The notes below the pieces were generated by a model, which saw only the letters and a list, made by a program, of their open reading frames with translations, searched no databases and was not told where the DNA came from. Shown one piece after another: positions 10,336 through 55,075 of a DNA stretch of 64,000 nt (position 1 is the stretch's first letter; each line of letters begins with the position of its first letter). The position numbers and the translations under genes are program-made. This stretch comes from Bacillus sp. KH172YL63 (lineage in GTDB: Bacteria; Bacillota; Bacilli; Bacillales; Bacillaceae_B): NCBI RefSeq assembly GCF_011398925.1, contig NZ_AP022842.1, positions 856,001 to 920,000 on the forward strand, written 5' to 3'.

Positions 10336-11193
10336 ATGGAAATGCTTAACAGAATGAATGACTGCATTCAATATATCGAGGACAATCTTGAAGGGGATAT
10401 CCGTATGGAGGAGCTTGCCAGGCTGTCACTCAGCTCGAAGTTCCACTTTCAGCGACTGTTCTCACTCGTAACCGGCTGTACAGTCGCTGAATATATCCGT
10501 AAGCGAAGACTGACACGGGCTGCCCAGGATCTGCTCAACACAGATGCAAAGGTCATCGATGTGGCTTTCACCTACGGATACGAAACGCCGGAATCTTTTT
10601 CAAAAGCCTTCCGGAGGGCCCACGGCGTTTCACCATCACAGGTGAGGGCACCTGGGACGTCCCTTAAAGCATTCCCGCGCATTTCCTTCCAAATCCAGCT
10701 AAAAGGAGAAGTCGAAATGAATTATAAAATTGTGGACAAAGAAGCATTCCAGGTAATCGGAAAAGGGAAAAGGGTATCCACCCGGGACGGGGAGAATCTG
10801 ACTGATATTCCTGCCTTTTGGGGAGAAGTGAACAGTTCAGGTCTCGACAGGAAAATCTGTGAAGCAGCAGGGACTGAGGAAATGCTCGGGATTTGTATGG
10901 AGTTTGATCATCCGAACGAAGCATTCACATATTTCATCGGAGCGGGCAAGAAGGGCAGCGGTGATCCATCTCTTGTGGTAAAAGAGATCCCAGCAGCAAC
11001 ATGGGCCGTATTCGAATCGGTCGGCCCGATGCCAAATGCGATCCAGGCTGTATGGAAGAGGATTTTCTCAGAATGGTTCCCGTCAACAGGTTATGAACAT
11101 GCCGGCGGACCGGAATTTGAATTGTATCCGCCAGGGAACCCCAACAGTAAAGACTACCGCTGTGAAGTGTGGGTGCCGATTGTAAAAAAATAA
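10336..11193 (+). CDS. AraC-type regulator with GyrI-like effector domain
   Basis: A 285-aa two-domain protein. Residues 1-105 carry two helix-turn-helix units: MEELARLSLSSKFHFQRLF and VAFTYGYETPESFSKAFRRA. From about residue 130 (NYKIVDKEAFQVIGKGKRVS) there is a GyrI/BmrR-like small-molecule-binding domain ending in EFELYPPGNPNSKDYRCEVW, with the Glu-containing WVPI strand typical of the fold. Such proteins sense hydrophobic cations or antibiotics and activate efflux or detoxification genes. Monocistronic, with its own terminator. A paralogue lies at 49867-50802. Confidence 0.88.
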   Translation: MEMLNRMNDCIQYIEDNLEGDIRMEELARLSLSSKFHFQRLFSLVTGCTVAEYIRKRRLTRAAQDLLNTDAKVIDVAFTYGYETPESFSKAFRRAHGVSPSQVRAPGTSLKAFPRISFQIQLKGEVEMNYKIVDKEAFQVIGKGKRVSTRDGENLTDIPAFWGEVNSSGLDRKICEAAGTEEMLGICMEFDHPNEAFTYFIGAGKKGSGDPSLVVKEIPAATWAVFESVGPMPNAIQAVWKRIFSEWFPSTGYEHAGGPEFELYPPGNPNSKDYRCEVWVPIVKK

Positions 11194-11200
11194 GAAAGTG

Positions 11201-11230
11201 AGCCTCCGATGAGCATCGGGGGCTTTTTTA
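11201..11230 (+). terminator. Terminator after the AraC-GyrI gene
   Basis: Stem AGCCTCCGATG/CATCGGGGGCT (one G-T pair) with a 2-nt loop and seven T. Confidence 0.88.
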
Positions 11231-11447
11231 TAGGGGGGATAGAGGAGGGGAATTGAATTTTGGTGGCTTGGATGTGGTGTGCCTTATCGTGGTAGAAGCC
11301 AGGAAATGCTGAGAACTAGCGTATTTAATTGTGGTTGTCGGTATAAATGGGTGATTTCTAGCGTATGATGACCCTGTTGCCTGTTTGGGGATCGAATCTG
11401 AAAAATTAATATCGCTTTCAGCTGGGATCTGTTCTAGTTTGAAGGTT
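11231..11447. other. Intergenic DNA without a gene
   Basis: No convincing frame or ribosome site. A short phrase CTAGCGTAT recurs about 52 bp apart (near 11316 and 11368), possibly decayed units of the array that follows. Confidence 0.5.
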
Positions 11448-11567
11448 ATATTATCGACTTCGCCTGGGATATTATCGAGTTTCAGGATATATTATCGACT
11501 TCGGCCAGAATATTATCGAGTTTCATCATATATTATCGACTTCGCCCAATATATTATCAACTTTCAA
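11448..11567. repeat. Phased repeat array A, 20/21-bp period
   Basis: The phrase ATATTATCGA starts at 11448, 11469, 11489, 11510, 11530 and (as ATATTATCAA) 11551. Steps are 21, 20, 21, 20, 21. Units alternate between ...CGACTTCG and ...CGAGTTTC endings, giving a 41-bp higher-order period. Six to seven variable bases separate phrases. A weaker unit (AATATCGCTTTC) precedes it. It lies between two convergent genes. The alternating step breaks any reading frame, so it is not coding. Confidence 0.88.
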
Positions 11568-11630
11568 AATCCATAAGGAATCCCCCACCGGTCGCAAGAA
11601 TCTGCAGTATAATTGAATCTTTAGTGAAAG

Positions 11631-11675
11631 AAATCCGCACGGTATTGGTTTTCAATACCATGCGGATTTTTTAGG
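11631..11675. terminator. Bidirectional terminator, mainly for cotA
   Basis: A 17-bp stem with one mismatch (AAATCCGCACGGTATTG / CAATACCATGCGGATTT) and T-rich tails on both strands. Confidence 0.82.
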
Positions 11676-11707: not shown

Positions 11708-13240
11708 TCACCTCACCACCACATAAGGCCGCATCATCTCTTCATCTTCATGCTCCAGAATGTGACAATGCCAGACGTAGAGCCCTGTATAAGGTCCGAA
11801 CGGCACGATGATCCTAGTCATTTCCCATGGATTGGCGCAAACGGTATCCTTCCAGCCTTGTTCGGTTTGGGGTGGCTTTTTCCGCGGAGAAACCGGGACG
11901 AATCTGCCTTCCCTCCGGTAGATATCCTGATCGAAACGCTGCCTGTCGAGGATTTGAAAGCGGACTAAGTGTAAATGAATCGGATGGGATTCTTCGGTGA
12001 CGTTCATCAGGTTCCAGATTTCCATGCTCCACAGCCTGGGCATTTCCGTGATCGGATCCGACCATTTCTGGTCATTTAAAAGGTGTATTTCCCGGTTGTA
12101 CTGGTCCCGCCTCATATTTAACAGGAGGGTCCTTGTTACTGTCGCATGGTGCTCGGGTAATCGGGGGACAGCGGATAGCACTTTAGGAATGTCACGATTC
12201 TTTTTTTCTGACAAAGCTTTCACGACACGGAACTGCATCACGGATCCTGTCGTATCGGGATCAGGGGCGGGGCCATTAGGGAACGGGGCCCGTGCATGAT
12301 TCTCGAGGGTGATGCTTTTTCCTTCCATAGAAGAGAAATCGATGATCACATCGGCACGTTCTGCAGGAGCAAGGAGGATTTCCCGGACAGGGACCGGAGC
12401 AGACAGAAGCCCCTGGTCGGAGCCGATCTGGATGAAAGAAGCGCTGTTTGACAATGAAAAGCGGTATGTCCGGGAGTTGGATCCATTGATCAGCCTGAAA
12501 CGGTAACGGCGGTTTTCCACTTCCAAATAGGGCCAGACCATCCCATTCACAAGGATGGTGTCTCCGAAGAAATGGGGGACGAAAGAGGGATCGATTTCAG
12601 GGACAGGCGGGTCCGGCTGGGAAGGATAGTAGAGTGAACCATCTTCGTTAAAGGAGCGGTCCATGATCAGCAAGGGAATATCGTATGGTTCATCAGGCAG
12701 TTGTAAAGCGTCTTCTTCATCGTCATGGATGATATATGCCCCTGCCAAACCTGCGTAAATATTAAGTCGGGTGATCCCGATGGCATGATCGTGGTACCAG
12801 AGGGTGGTGGCCCGCTGCTGATTTGGGTAGACGTACGTTTCGGAATTGAAGAATGGACCGACTTCTTGAAAGCCTTTTGTAAACCATGCGTCAGGATATC
12901 CATCGCTCGTATCCGGCGTCACGCCTCCATGAAGGTGAACGACGGTGCGCACCTCAGGCTTATCCTTTTCCGCTCCGTGGACGGTGGTGTCGACCGGTAA
13001 TAGGTGACGTTCAGGAAGATCATTTTTCCATGTGACATAGACCGGTTGATTCCGTTTTACTTGGAACAGAGGGCCGGGAAATCGACCGTTGTATCCCCAG
13101 ATCCTTGTCGGAGGCAGATCCCGGTGCAGTTTCTGCATGTTTTCGGTCATTGTGACTTCATAATATTGACCGTCCCTCCCGATTGATGTGGGAGAAAGAG
13201 TTTCCATGATCGGCAGTGGATCCACGAATTTTTCCAACAT
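11708..13240 (-). CDS. cotA: CotA-type multicopper oxidase (spore-coat laccase)
   Basis: A 510-aa three-cupredoxin protein, almost the length of B. subtilis CotA (513 aa). Copper ligands are visible in all four expected blocks: VVHLHGG near residue 103, WYHDHAIG near 152, HPIHLH and the terminal VWHCHILEHEDEEMMRP holding the type-1 Cys. The N-terminal segment KFVDPLPIMETL is typical of CotA. It oxidises phenolics, bilirubin or Mn(II) with reduction of O2 to water, in the outer spore coat. No signal peptide, as expected for a coat protein made in the mother cell. I cannot identify a sigma-K promoter with confidence. Confidence 0.92.
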   Translation of the reverse strand: MLEKFVDPLPIMETLSPTSIGRDGQYYEVTMTENMQKLHRDLPPTRIWGYNGRFPGPLFQVKRNQPVYVTWKNDLPERHLLPVDTTVHGAEKDKPEVRTVVHLHGGVTPDTSDGYPDAWFTKGFQEVGPFFNSETYVYPNQQRATTLWYHDHAIGITRLNIYAGLAGAYIIHDDEEDALQLPDEPYDIPLLIMDRSFNEDGSLYYPSQPDPPVPEIDPSFVPHFFGDTILVNGMVWPYLEVENRRYRFRLINGSNSRTYRFSLSNSASFIQIGSDQGLLSAPVPVREILLAPAERADVIIDFSSMEGKSITLENHARAPFPNGPAPDPDTTGSVMQFRVVKALSEKKNRDIPKVLSAVPRLPEHHATVTRTLLLNMRRDQYNREIHLLNDQKWSDPITEMPRLWSMEIWNLMNVTEESHPIHLHLVRFQILDRQRFDQDIYRREGRFVPVSPRKKPPQTEQGWKDTVCANPWEMTRIIVPFGPYTGLYVWHCHILEHEDEEMMRPYVVVR

Positions 13241-22920: not shown

Positions 22921-23052
22921 AGTTGGTGATATATTGGTGGAAGTCGATAATAAATCGGAAGAAGTCGATAATATAATGGGAAAGTCAATAATATTTCGGC
23001 CGAACCCGATAATATATTGTCCAAAGTCGATAATATATCTATTGGGCCCGAT
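22921..23052. repeat. Phased repeat array B, 21-bp period (reverse complement of array A phrase)
   Basis: The phrase GAAGTCGATAATAT recurs with CGAT (or its variant) at 22945, 22966, 22986, 23007, 23028 and 23049, steps 20-21, with a degenerate unit at 22921. It is the reverse complement of the array A phrase ATATTATCGACTTC. Alternate units read AAGTCGATAAT and ACCCGATAAT. It lies 76 bp past the RpiR-type gene. Confidence 0.86.
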
Positions 23053-23115
23053 CATAACTCATGAAAAATGGTATAAAAGCAGGCGCGAGGGTTCCAAAAT
23101 GGGCTCATGTGGGTT

Positions 23116-23212
23116 GTTTATTTTCAAATTGATCTTACTTATTTTCAAAAATAGCGTATTATTTTCAAAACCGGCCAACTTATTTTCAAAAACAGCAATA
23201 TATTTTCAAAAC
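23116..23212. repeat. Phased repeat array C, 20/21-bp period
   Basis: ATTTTCAAA starts at 23120, 23141, 23161, 23182 and 23202; steps 21, 20, 21, 20. Flanking positions are usually TT before and AA after, with about nine variable bases between. It is separate in sequence from array B, which ends only 65 bp earlier, but keeps the same spacing. Confidence 0.86.
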
Positions 23213-23253
23213 CAGAAACTTAAGCCTAAAACCTACCACTGCCATAACCAAAC

Positions 23254-46471: not shown

Positions 46472-46610
46472 AATTTTATCGGTGAGCGGGAGTTTTTTAG
46501 GGGAATCGTCATGAAGAGTGACACTTTATGAGCGGCAATTGTGACCTGTTGAATGGCTAGAGCCTTTTCAAGAGTTATAATCCGTCCTGCGATGAGCTTA
46601 TCGGCGAAAT
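46472..46610. repeat. First copy of a roughly 140-bp direct repeat flanking array D
   Basis: Runs from AATTTTATCGGTGAGCGGGA through GTCATGAAGAGTGACACTT and TTTTCAAGAGTTATAATC to CTTATCGGCGAAAT. The same order of landmarks recurs at 46694-46832 with about 80% identity by eye. Confidence 0.75.
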
Positions 46611-46708
46611 AATCAATATAACGGCGAAATCCTCGATTTAACGGCGAAATTTCCAATATAACGGCGAAATACAGAATATAACGGCGAAATCCCAATTTTA
46701 TCGGCGAA
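46601..46708. repeat. Phased repeat array D, exact 20-bp period
   Basis: CGGCGAA starts at 46602, 46622, 46642, 46662, 46682 and 46702, every step exactly 20 bp. Most units read ATATAACGGCGAAAT with five variable bases between. It connects the two copies of the flanking direct repeat. Confidence 0.9.
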
Positions 46709-46850
46709 CGGGGGTTTTTGGGGAATCATCATGAAGAGTGACACTTGGTATGAGCGGAAAATGTGATCTATTTAATGTCTACGGCCTGTTCAAGAGTTAT
46801 AATCAGTCCTGCGAAGAGCTCATCGGCGAAATCCCGATTTTATCAGCGAA
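46694..46850. repeat. Second copy of the direct repeat flanking array D
   Basis: Starts AATTTTATCGGCGAACGGGG, passes ATCATGAAGAGTGACACTT and TGTTCAAGAGTTATAATC, and ends CATCGGCGAAAT, followed by one more 20-bp unit (CAGCGAACG at 46844). Confidence 0.75.
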
Positions 46851-46918
46851 CGCCCCATTTTCAGCAGCTCACCCCAAAGAAATATCCTCAGGATGAGCAG
46901 CTCAATATAACAATCCTT

Positions 46919-49199: not shown

Positions 49200-49321
49200 A
49201 TATCAGAGGAGGGTTTTGTCCCAGCCTCGGCTATTCCATCGGAACGATCAGGACCGTTTGGATTTCTGATCGATGTACCATTAGCGCAACACCCTCCTAT
49301 CTCCCGTAGGATTTTCTGTGT

Positions 49322-49498
49322 TCTTCCCGATTGGCAGGTCTCCTGGCTCGGCTTCACCGCTCCCATATCCCTTCCCATTCCGAATCGGAACAGTGGTTTC
49401 ATATGTGAACTCAGCCTTACAGTGGCGGGACCGCGCTGGATTTACACCAGCTTCCCTTTTAAGAAAATGATATAAGCATCATTTCCACCAATGAGCAA
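49322..49498 (-). ncRNA. Cobalamin (B12) riboswitch aptamer, orphaned
   Basis: Read on the minus strand, the conserved order is present: AAAGGGAAGCTGGTGTAAA, TCCAGCGCGGTCCCGCCACT, then GAAGCCGAGCCAGGAGACCT and GCC (B12 box). The 5' end has ATTGGTGG near 49490. This is a full class I cobalamin aptamer. Downstream (49229-49320) is GGAGGGTGTTGCGCTAATG, a possible ribosome site and start, but the frame stops after 16 codons right at the IS edge. No B12-related gene follows; the next gene beyond the IS is a thioesterase. Confidence 0.92.
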
Positions 49499-49520
49499 TG
49501 ATTAAATTGTGAACACTATC

Positions 49521-54736: not shown

Positions 54737-54778
54737 GACATATAGAGAGAAGAGCAGGGACTTCTGTCGCTGCTCTCT

Positions 54779-54848
54779 CTCGTAGTCAAACCATTTACGG
54801 TGGCTTGGTAGAAACTTTTGGACCATATTTCCAATATTATACGAGTTT
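54779..54848 (-). ncRNA. Purine riboswitch aptamer, guanine class
   Basis: On the minus strand AACTCGTATAATATTGGAAA opens P1-P2, GTTTCTACCAAGC is the conserved core, CCGTAAATGGTTTGACTACG closes P3 and P1. The base that reads the ligand is the C in GACTACG, which specifies guanine/hypoxanthine; adenine aptamers have U there. It controls the adenine deaminase gene by transcription termination. Confidence 0.92.
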
Positions 54849-55075
54849 ATAGATGAAAGTATTTATCAAGATTACCTCACATTTTATATGCACCGAAAGC
54901 ACTGTGTCAATGGTCAGTTGATCGTGAATCAGCGGGGGTGTTGTGTGTCCTTCACGGCATGGGTCCGGGGTAACGGCAAGGGAGGTGAACTTTTACCATA
55001 AAAATCCTTTACAGCTCATAGTTTTCCTTTACTATTAAAGATAGAGTTTTCTGATAAAATATCCTGGAGGTAAAC

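Follow-up and report, generated by a model that had tools for sequence, protein, structure and literature searches.

Rows of short words at 20- and 21-bp steps between the genes of a Bacillus genome: candidate sites for a DNA-binding protein

Between its genes, the chromosome of Bacillus sp. KH172YL63 carries rows of a short word repeated at steps of 20 and 21 bp, and the array examined most closely here (the focal array), which lies in a stretch of 64,000 nucleotides that we call the window, is a member, presumably in Rossellomorea, of the 20-21-nt constant-size class of tandem repeats. The original prediction had found no repeat class to which the array could be assigned; it fits this published one (PMC8161180). 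Judging from sequence comparisons, we tentatively read the array as a candidate row of sequence-specific sites for a host DNA-binding protein that would assemble cooperatively every two turns of the helix, a reading to which we give just under an even chance. A binding array was among the original proposals and is also the likely reading here: Words that are conserved within an array but differ between species, spacers that vary freely, a step of two turns and helical phasing together fit a row of sites for a protein.

Results

Make-up and setting of the focal array

The focal array had been described as one phrase occurring six times. Five exact copies of ATATTATCGA (at 11448, 11469, 11489, 11510 and 11530) bear this out, but the sixth unit, ATATTATCAA, has one mismatch; the predicted steps are exact (Table 1) and their mean is 20.6. 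The alternation of endings that had been noted holds for units 1-4 (GACTTCG and GAGTTTC by turns) and breaks down at the end of the array, where unit 5 has GACTTCG and unit 6 has AACTTTC. Tandem Repeats Finder (TRF) reports periods of both 41 bp and 20/21 bp. The unit chain begins at 11432, further upstream than which the chain detector does not reach.

As predicted, the array lies between convergent genes, and because each of these is closed by a terminator of its own, it is also enclosed by two terminators; the one on the oxidase side was missed by one terminator scan and caught by a second search. On the minus strand, pairs of units look like promoters (TCGATA, 16-17 bases, GATAAT), and a promoter scan of that strand returned five matches where 1.4 were expected. 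Because the unit resembles correctly spaced -35 and -10 boxes, we do not take this excess as evidence for promoters within the array. Rfam matches within the window comprise two riboswitches only, for cobalamin and purine (49316-49507 and 54763-54864, both on the minus strand), with no known RNA family at the array.

Table 1. Features of the window, with positions counted from its first nucleotide
Feature	Position	Strand	Description
Left convergent gene	10336..11193	+	protein with AraC-type HTH and GyrI-like domain
Terminator of left gene	11200..11225	+	intrinsic; terminator scan
Putative ORF overlapping focal array	11385-11576		63 aa, TTG start; doubtful as a gene
Probable degenerate units preceding focal array in phase	11406..11447	+	read by eye
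Focal array	11448..11567	+	six units, word TATTATC[G/A]A[C/G]TT, steps 21,20,21,20,21; final unit is the ATATTATCAAC variant
Terminator of multicopper oxidase gene	11631..11669	.	hairpin, A-run before and T-run after, bidirectional in form; sequence reading
Right convergent gene	11708..13240	-	multicopper oxidase
Second array of the focal word family	22944..23056	-	GTCGATAATA read on +; 5-6 units
TTATTTTCAAAA word array	23116..23222	+	5 units, steps 21/20
TTA[AT]CGGCGAAAT word array	46598..46706	+	6 units, every step 20

Abundance across the genome

The window and 20 other stretches (464 kb, 239 intergenic regions), extended by 20 further stretches to 864 kb and 452 regions, were searched for chains of at least four units at 20- or 21-bp steps, with low-complexity words and words containing N filtered out. 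Chains occurred in 18 of the 239 regions and in none of the regions of three dinucleotide shuffles. Control steps of 17/18, 23/24, 26/27, 29/30 and 35/36 bp yielded no region, and those of 32/33 bp two regions with four units; an unfiltered version of the detector gave 18 real regions against one per shuffle and one to three at other steps. The larger sample held 40 arrays in 30 of its 452 intergenic regions, which extrapolates to about 150-200 arrays genome-wide, and the word ATATTATCGA occurs 77 times in the 4.25-Mb single-contig genome, as opposed to four times for its reversed control.

Autocorrelation of intergenic 7-mers (464 kb) gave 184 pairs at lag 20 and 189 at lag 21 against about 13 per lag, with further peaks at lags 40-42 and 60-63, whereas coding DNA was flat at lag 20 and no higher at lag 21 than at other multiples of three. 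The comparison with shuffled DNA, which had been named as a refuting test, did not refute the original prediction.

Arrays were present in 9 of 52 convergent regions, in 9 of 187 and 9 of 134 tandem regions of the two orientations, and in 3 of 79 divergent regions (864 kb), counts that are approximate since our gene calls were home-made; one divergent region with five arrays (in L172) may be affected. The arrays had been expected mainly between convergent genes. They are indeed over-represented there (9/52 vs. 21/400 for all other regions; Fisher p = 0.004), but 18 of the 30 array regions are tandem. Only 5 of 107 arrays at the loci of relatives, which were chosen for the word, fell in divergent regions, though 73 of the 414 regions were divergent. 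Inspected by eye, the neighboring genes of 14 array loci look unrelated, which does not favor a link to gene function.

Word families and free spacers

Six word families follow the same geometry: TTATTATCGAC, TTATTGCGT, TTATGCGTC, TTA[AT]CGGCGAAAT, TATGAGC and TTATTTTCAAA (TTAT strand), a grouping that is our own and in which the TATGAGC scan caught other words too. Arrays of the TATTATCGA family have 60 steps of 21 bp and 35 of 20 bp, and those of the CGGCGAAA family have steps of 20 bp only (25 of 25). Because its step is so strict, the CGGCGAAA family drifts around a relaxed helix of 10.5 bp per turn; the idea that all copies face the same side therefore holds, and roughly so, for the focal array but not for this family, whose misfit with relaxed DNA counts against a binding row. 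The predicted super-period of 41 bp is likewise confined: Steps of 20 and 21 bp alternate within TATTATCGA arrays (in 58 of 74 step pairs, i.e., 0.78 vs. 0.48 expected) and in relatives (0.66 vs. 0.50), but not when all word families of the KH172YL63 sample are pooled (0.43 vs. 0.48). In the TATTATCGA family, a variant with AAC forms the last unit in 14 of 19 arrays, compared with 6 of 93 other units, and because this variant marks the last unit, an array has a direction and an end.

Across these 19 arrays, the identity of equally long spacers is 0.48 if they come from one array and 0.46 if they come from different arrays, whereas the word is 0.93 identical within and 0.90 between, and the proposed combination of a conserved phrase with free spacers at about two helical turns is upheld. 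The arrays were gathered by a 7-letter core with one mismatch allowed, such that word identity is partly imposed and spacer identity is not. Since slippage or unequal crossing-over would make the spacers of one array alike, we reject both as the source; with spacers as unlike within an array as between loci, these are arrays of sites and not slippage satellites.

Persistence, turnover and changing words in relatives

Three phased copies of the word occur in at least 120 stretches of public genomes. Among the 80 matches listed, 46 bore the name Rossellomorea and 12 that of [Bacillus] enclensis; the others belonged to further Bacillus-like names, to Metabacillus, Fictibacillus, Alkalihalobacterium and Peribacillus, and to a small number of contigs of cyanobacteria and candidate phyla. 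(One of the cyanobacterial loci, L080 from Calothrix brevissima NIES-22, has fifteen units at exact 21-bp steps and looks like an ordinary tandem repeat.) A two-copy pattern was found in 23 of 36 genomes of the window's genus, with no control matches. By blastn, relatives carry arrays of 3-8 units with other spacers at orthologous positions, and the loss of phasing in close relatives that had been named as refuting the prediction was not seen there.

Persistence is clearest at a locus at 4.22 Mb (gene L020:3208-3621), where an array of three or more units is present in 14 of 16 syntenic genomes, and one of four or more in 13 of the 16; among 25 close orthologues of the gene, the downstream neighbor is present in 16, and none of the nine without it has an array. 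Depending on the species, the word at this locus is GTCGATAATA, GTTGAAAATAA, TTTTGAAAATAA or TTTTTGATAATA, at the same site and with the same steps, and because of this variation two families of one genome can be regarded as alternative states of one array.

Within a strain, the word is fairly homogeneous over many loci. TATTATC is followed by GACT in 45 of 57 units of strain JM7, and by AAAA in 75 of 85 units of SAMM, 48 of 75 of enclensis and 43 of 71 of AcN35-5. The loci of relatives were fetched by TATTATCRA, with the same pattern for JM7 and SAMM, which correspond by their identical arrays to our genomes G003 and G002 (relatives' loci and sampled genomes overlap and are not independent). 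In KH172YL63 it is followed by GACT, GAGT or AACT in 88 of 96 units, a figure biased toward G since these loci were fetched by ATATTATCGA. Core identity is 0.98 for units picked by a loose word pattern. When 100 kb of each of four relatives was sampled without regard to the word, arrays appeared in 0 of 46 regions (G019), 1 of 54 (G032), 3 of 52 (G007) and 2 of 54 (G029), small numbers to set beside 26 of 415 regions in 800 kb of KH172YL63. The word itself is plentiful in G000, G002, G003, G006 and G009 and absent from G008, G019 and G032.

At three of the four loci examined, arrays turn over. They are present at 2 of 30 spoVG-glmU loci (one locus being truncated and one containing a run of N), at 9 of 27 L009 loci (6 of 27 with at least four units) and at 2 of 30 DegV-yajQ loci, and because so few genomes carry them there, single arrays must be dispensable. 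One L009 locus (L286, from G023) has ten units, with steps of 21 and 20 bp followed by seven of 21 bp. In G007, the spoVG-glmU gap (L227) is filled by a GC-rich repeat in several copies (CCAGCTCCGGCGGC ... CTCGAGGTCATAAG), a shorter relative of which comes after the array in G000. The DegV-yajQ array brings about 300 bp of extra DNA, which follows the upstream terminator and precedes a promoter-like sequence in front of yajQ; no target-site duplication was seen in the single insertion that was aligned. At the focal locus, contig L128 of a relative aligns until position 11231 of the window and has a 5-unit array soon after, and G030 keeps the gene pair with less than 40 bp and one terminator between the two, relative to which the focal array comes with about 470 bp of extra DNA. 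None of the other eight oxidase relatives examined has an array of at least four units, and in most the neighboring gene is different.

Duplication of the DNA around an array is seen in several places. L164 has two TATGAGC arrays at a distance of 305 bp and L154 two GTCGATAATA arrays at a distance of 235 bp, and the TATGAGC arrays have a common end, TGTCGAAAAATC, in seven of seven copies listed. In L172 (8400-9520; genome about 408.4-409.5 kb), five arrays with the words GACGCATAA and GACGCAAT sit in about three direct copies of some 400 bp upstream of gatCAB-like genes, and by eye one array is preceded by promoter-like TTTACA-16-TATAAG. In the window, there are two copies, in the same orientation, of a composite of about 110 bp (GAATC.TCATGAAGAGTGACACTT ... 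CAAGAGTTATAATC) with CGGCGAAA units after it (46480-46860).

These duplications (L164, L154, L172 and 46.4-46.9 kb of the window), the common end of the TATGAGC arrays, the extra DNA at two loci and the turnover are what would be expected of dispersed repeat elements, satellite or REP/MITE-like, without host function and tolerated only between genes, and the duplications and the turnover speak against a binding row. Still, copying or slippage would carry spacers along, whereas here the word is kept and spacers are saturated even at orthologous sites; in addition, an array is maintained in most syntenic genomes at the 4.22-Mb locus, and neither a target duplication (in one insertion) nor complementarity of the flanks accompanies the arrays. 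We consider dispersed repeats unlikely, if a genuine contender.

Helical phasing

In each of the six word scans, AT content oscillates with a period of about 10-10.25 bp. At 10.25 bp, AT power is 10.25 in the KH172YL63 sample against 3.39 after shuffling, whose level is not exceeded at 6.8 and 5.1 bp. Relatives have 5.51 against 3.29, and there 6.8 bp is slightly raised (3.48 vs. 2.71). The phasing extends into the 100-bp flanks (2.84, n = 184, KH172YL63 and relatives, vs. 1.14 in array-less regions of KH172YL63, n = 288). Using assumed wedge-model values, the predicted bend is moderate: 63 against 40 for shuffled sequences in KH172YL63 (27 of 40 arrays above), and 84 against 43 in relatives (87 of 105). 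Six loci (L029, L038, L047, L064, L080 and L144), which we took for other organisms or for plain satellites, are left out of the statistics of relatives for folding, bend, phasing, step alternation and skew.

Phasing of AT and GC at 10-10.5 bp in array and flanks might be all that is used, in that gyrase, HU or a similar protein would wrap or bend the DNA and the words would matter only for phasing. Six units of 20.5 bp would make about 125 bp, arrays are in excess in convergent regions, and work on BIMEs offers a precedent for a topological insulator. Words with fixed G and C letters at about 20 loci, specific to the strain, exceed what phasing needs, and we regard wrapping by itself as improbable.

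Strand composition, terminators and RNA folding

On average, strand composition reverses at the array, from G- and T-rich before it to C- and A-rich after it. The reversal is seen in tandem regions of KH172YL63 (++ 0.62 vs. -0.04, p = 0.0004; -- 0.49 vs. 0.02, p = 0.001) and of relatives (++ 0.45 vs. 0.03, p = 1.6e-5; -- 0.37 vs. 0.06, p = 0.002) and in convergent regions of KH172YL63 (p = 0.011); it falls short of significance in the convergent regions of relatives (p = 0.16) and in divergent ones (p = 0.75 and 0.22). Being an average, it appears with both signs in only 23 of 40 single arrays. This flip suggests that an array separates two differently used stretches, as would arise from transcription stopping at the array from both sides, or from Rho-type termination beyond it.

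Counted strictly and once each, the gene 3' ends that face an array region number 36, of which 26 have a terminator before the nearest array, four have one beyond the array start and six have none (a looser count, 32 of 43, took ends once per array and allowed a 5-base overlap). Since array-less regions also have an intrinsic terminator at 103 of 151 gene ends, a position past a terminator is not a special property of the arrays, which are placed as any mid-intergenic DNA would be, and this control slightly lowers our confidence in a binding row.

The alternative in the original prediction, a structure at the 3' end of a transcript, finds no support: RNA folding is at z of about 0 on both strands, and each of the two genes has its terminator before the array is reached. 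Over 40 arrays, mean folding z is -0.02 and 0.23 on the two strands, which speaks against a hairpin or terminator in the array, and a giant stem formed by the flanks was discarded too, since true pairs of flanks have the same duplex energies as swapped ones. A role at the RNA level, either as a Rho-dependent two-way fail-safe terminator with C-rich, G-poor, rut-like exits or as small RNAs made from the repeats, would draw on the composition of the 80 bp after the arrays of KH172YL63 (C 0.27-0.32 vs. G 0.15-0.16), the average skew flip, the Rho encoded in the genome and, in the available text of PMC8625621 on transcription of the 52-nt class, the B. coagulans 52-nt satellites found in RNA-seq, but it is very improbable given words on both strands relative to genes, arrays lacking RNA structure and a helical spacing that it leaves unexplained.

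Discussion

If the arrays are rows of binding sites, their units would be bound either by a single host protein or by one related protein per word, which would assemble along bent or wrapped DNA with one unit per two helical turns. Rows would mostly occupy the DNA that separates a transcription unit, past its terminator, from the gene that follows, and there the complex could insulate against or block read-through, antisense transcription and the spread of supercoils or, alternatively, serve as an anchor for the nucleoid. Binding, polymerization of the protein and the role of the complex are all inferred.

A bolder version, which we think rather unlikely, is insulation throughout the genome by a filament-forming protein that co-evolves rapidly with its word and caps the gaps between transcription units in both directions, the different words marking paralogues. 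Transcription would then reach an array from both sides without passing it, giving flanks of mirror-image composition.

In print, the 20-21-nt class has been a catalogue without an explanation, and it can now be posed as a testable binding-site problem. Should the protein be found, it would point to a chromosome-organizing or transcription-insulating system in several Bacillaceae, one that model work on B. subtilis could not have revealed, as that species lacks the arrays: No 20-21-nt repeats are listed for it in the available text of PMC8161180. The handles for finding it are the strain-specific word, the two-turn spacing, the locus whose word differs between species and the relatives in which arrays of this word are scarce or absent.

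Comparison with known systems

REP and BIME sequences are palindromic, extragenic elements of many copies with a proposed role in supercoiling and termination. The present arrays also have many extragenic copies, but their units are repeated head to tail with constant helical spacing and are not palindromes, and their RNA folds no better than shuffled sequence. The centromeres of ParR-parC systems and the iterons of plasmids are direct repeats about two turns apart that are cooperatively bound by protein, at one or a few sites per replicon; the spacing is shared, whereas here many arrays are spread over a chromosome. CRISPR loci consist of near-identical repeats of about 23-50 bp with unique spacers, and the original prediction rightly set the array apart from them, the word here being about 10 bp, the step 20-21 bp and the arrays many and dispersed. 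AT phasing at 10-11 bp, i.e., A-tract periodicity and curved DNA, is described for bacterial DNA in the available texts of PMC516772 and PMC3940949. The arrays share this phasing but tie it to conserved words at a two-turn step.

The closest counterpart is the 20-21-nt constant-size class, with which a 2020 paper by Subirana and Messeguer in the Journal of Bacteriology is also said to deal. The available text of PMC8161180 (Subirana and Messeguer, IJMS 2021) describes 20-21-nt and 52-nt tandem repeats of Bacillus, constant in size and variable in sequence, with function unknown, and proposes for the 20-21-nt repeats a protein polymerizing on DNA, or small RNAs; it also includes a few 40-41-nt forms. 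Among the literature matches listed, only papers by these authors treat the class, and the words convergent, terminator, aquimaris, marisflavi and vietnamensis do not occur in the text of PMC8161180. The arrays of KH172YL63 have the defining features of the class, i.e., a repeat length of 20-21 nt with at least four repeats, several families unlike in sequence but of equal length in one genome (the six word families), a non-coding location (by home-made gene calls, the 20/21-bp signal is intergenic and not coding) and a short, conserved, species-specific signal. To these they add, relative to the available text of PMC8161180, the 20/21 alternation, the saturation of spacers, a locus that is kept as its word changes, the strand flip and the 10-bp phasing of the flanks.
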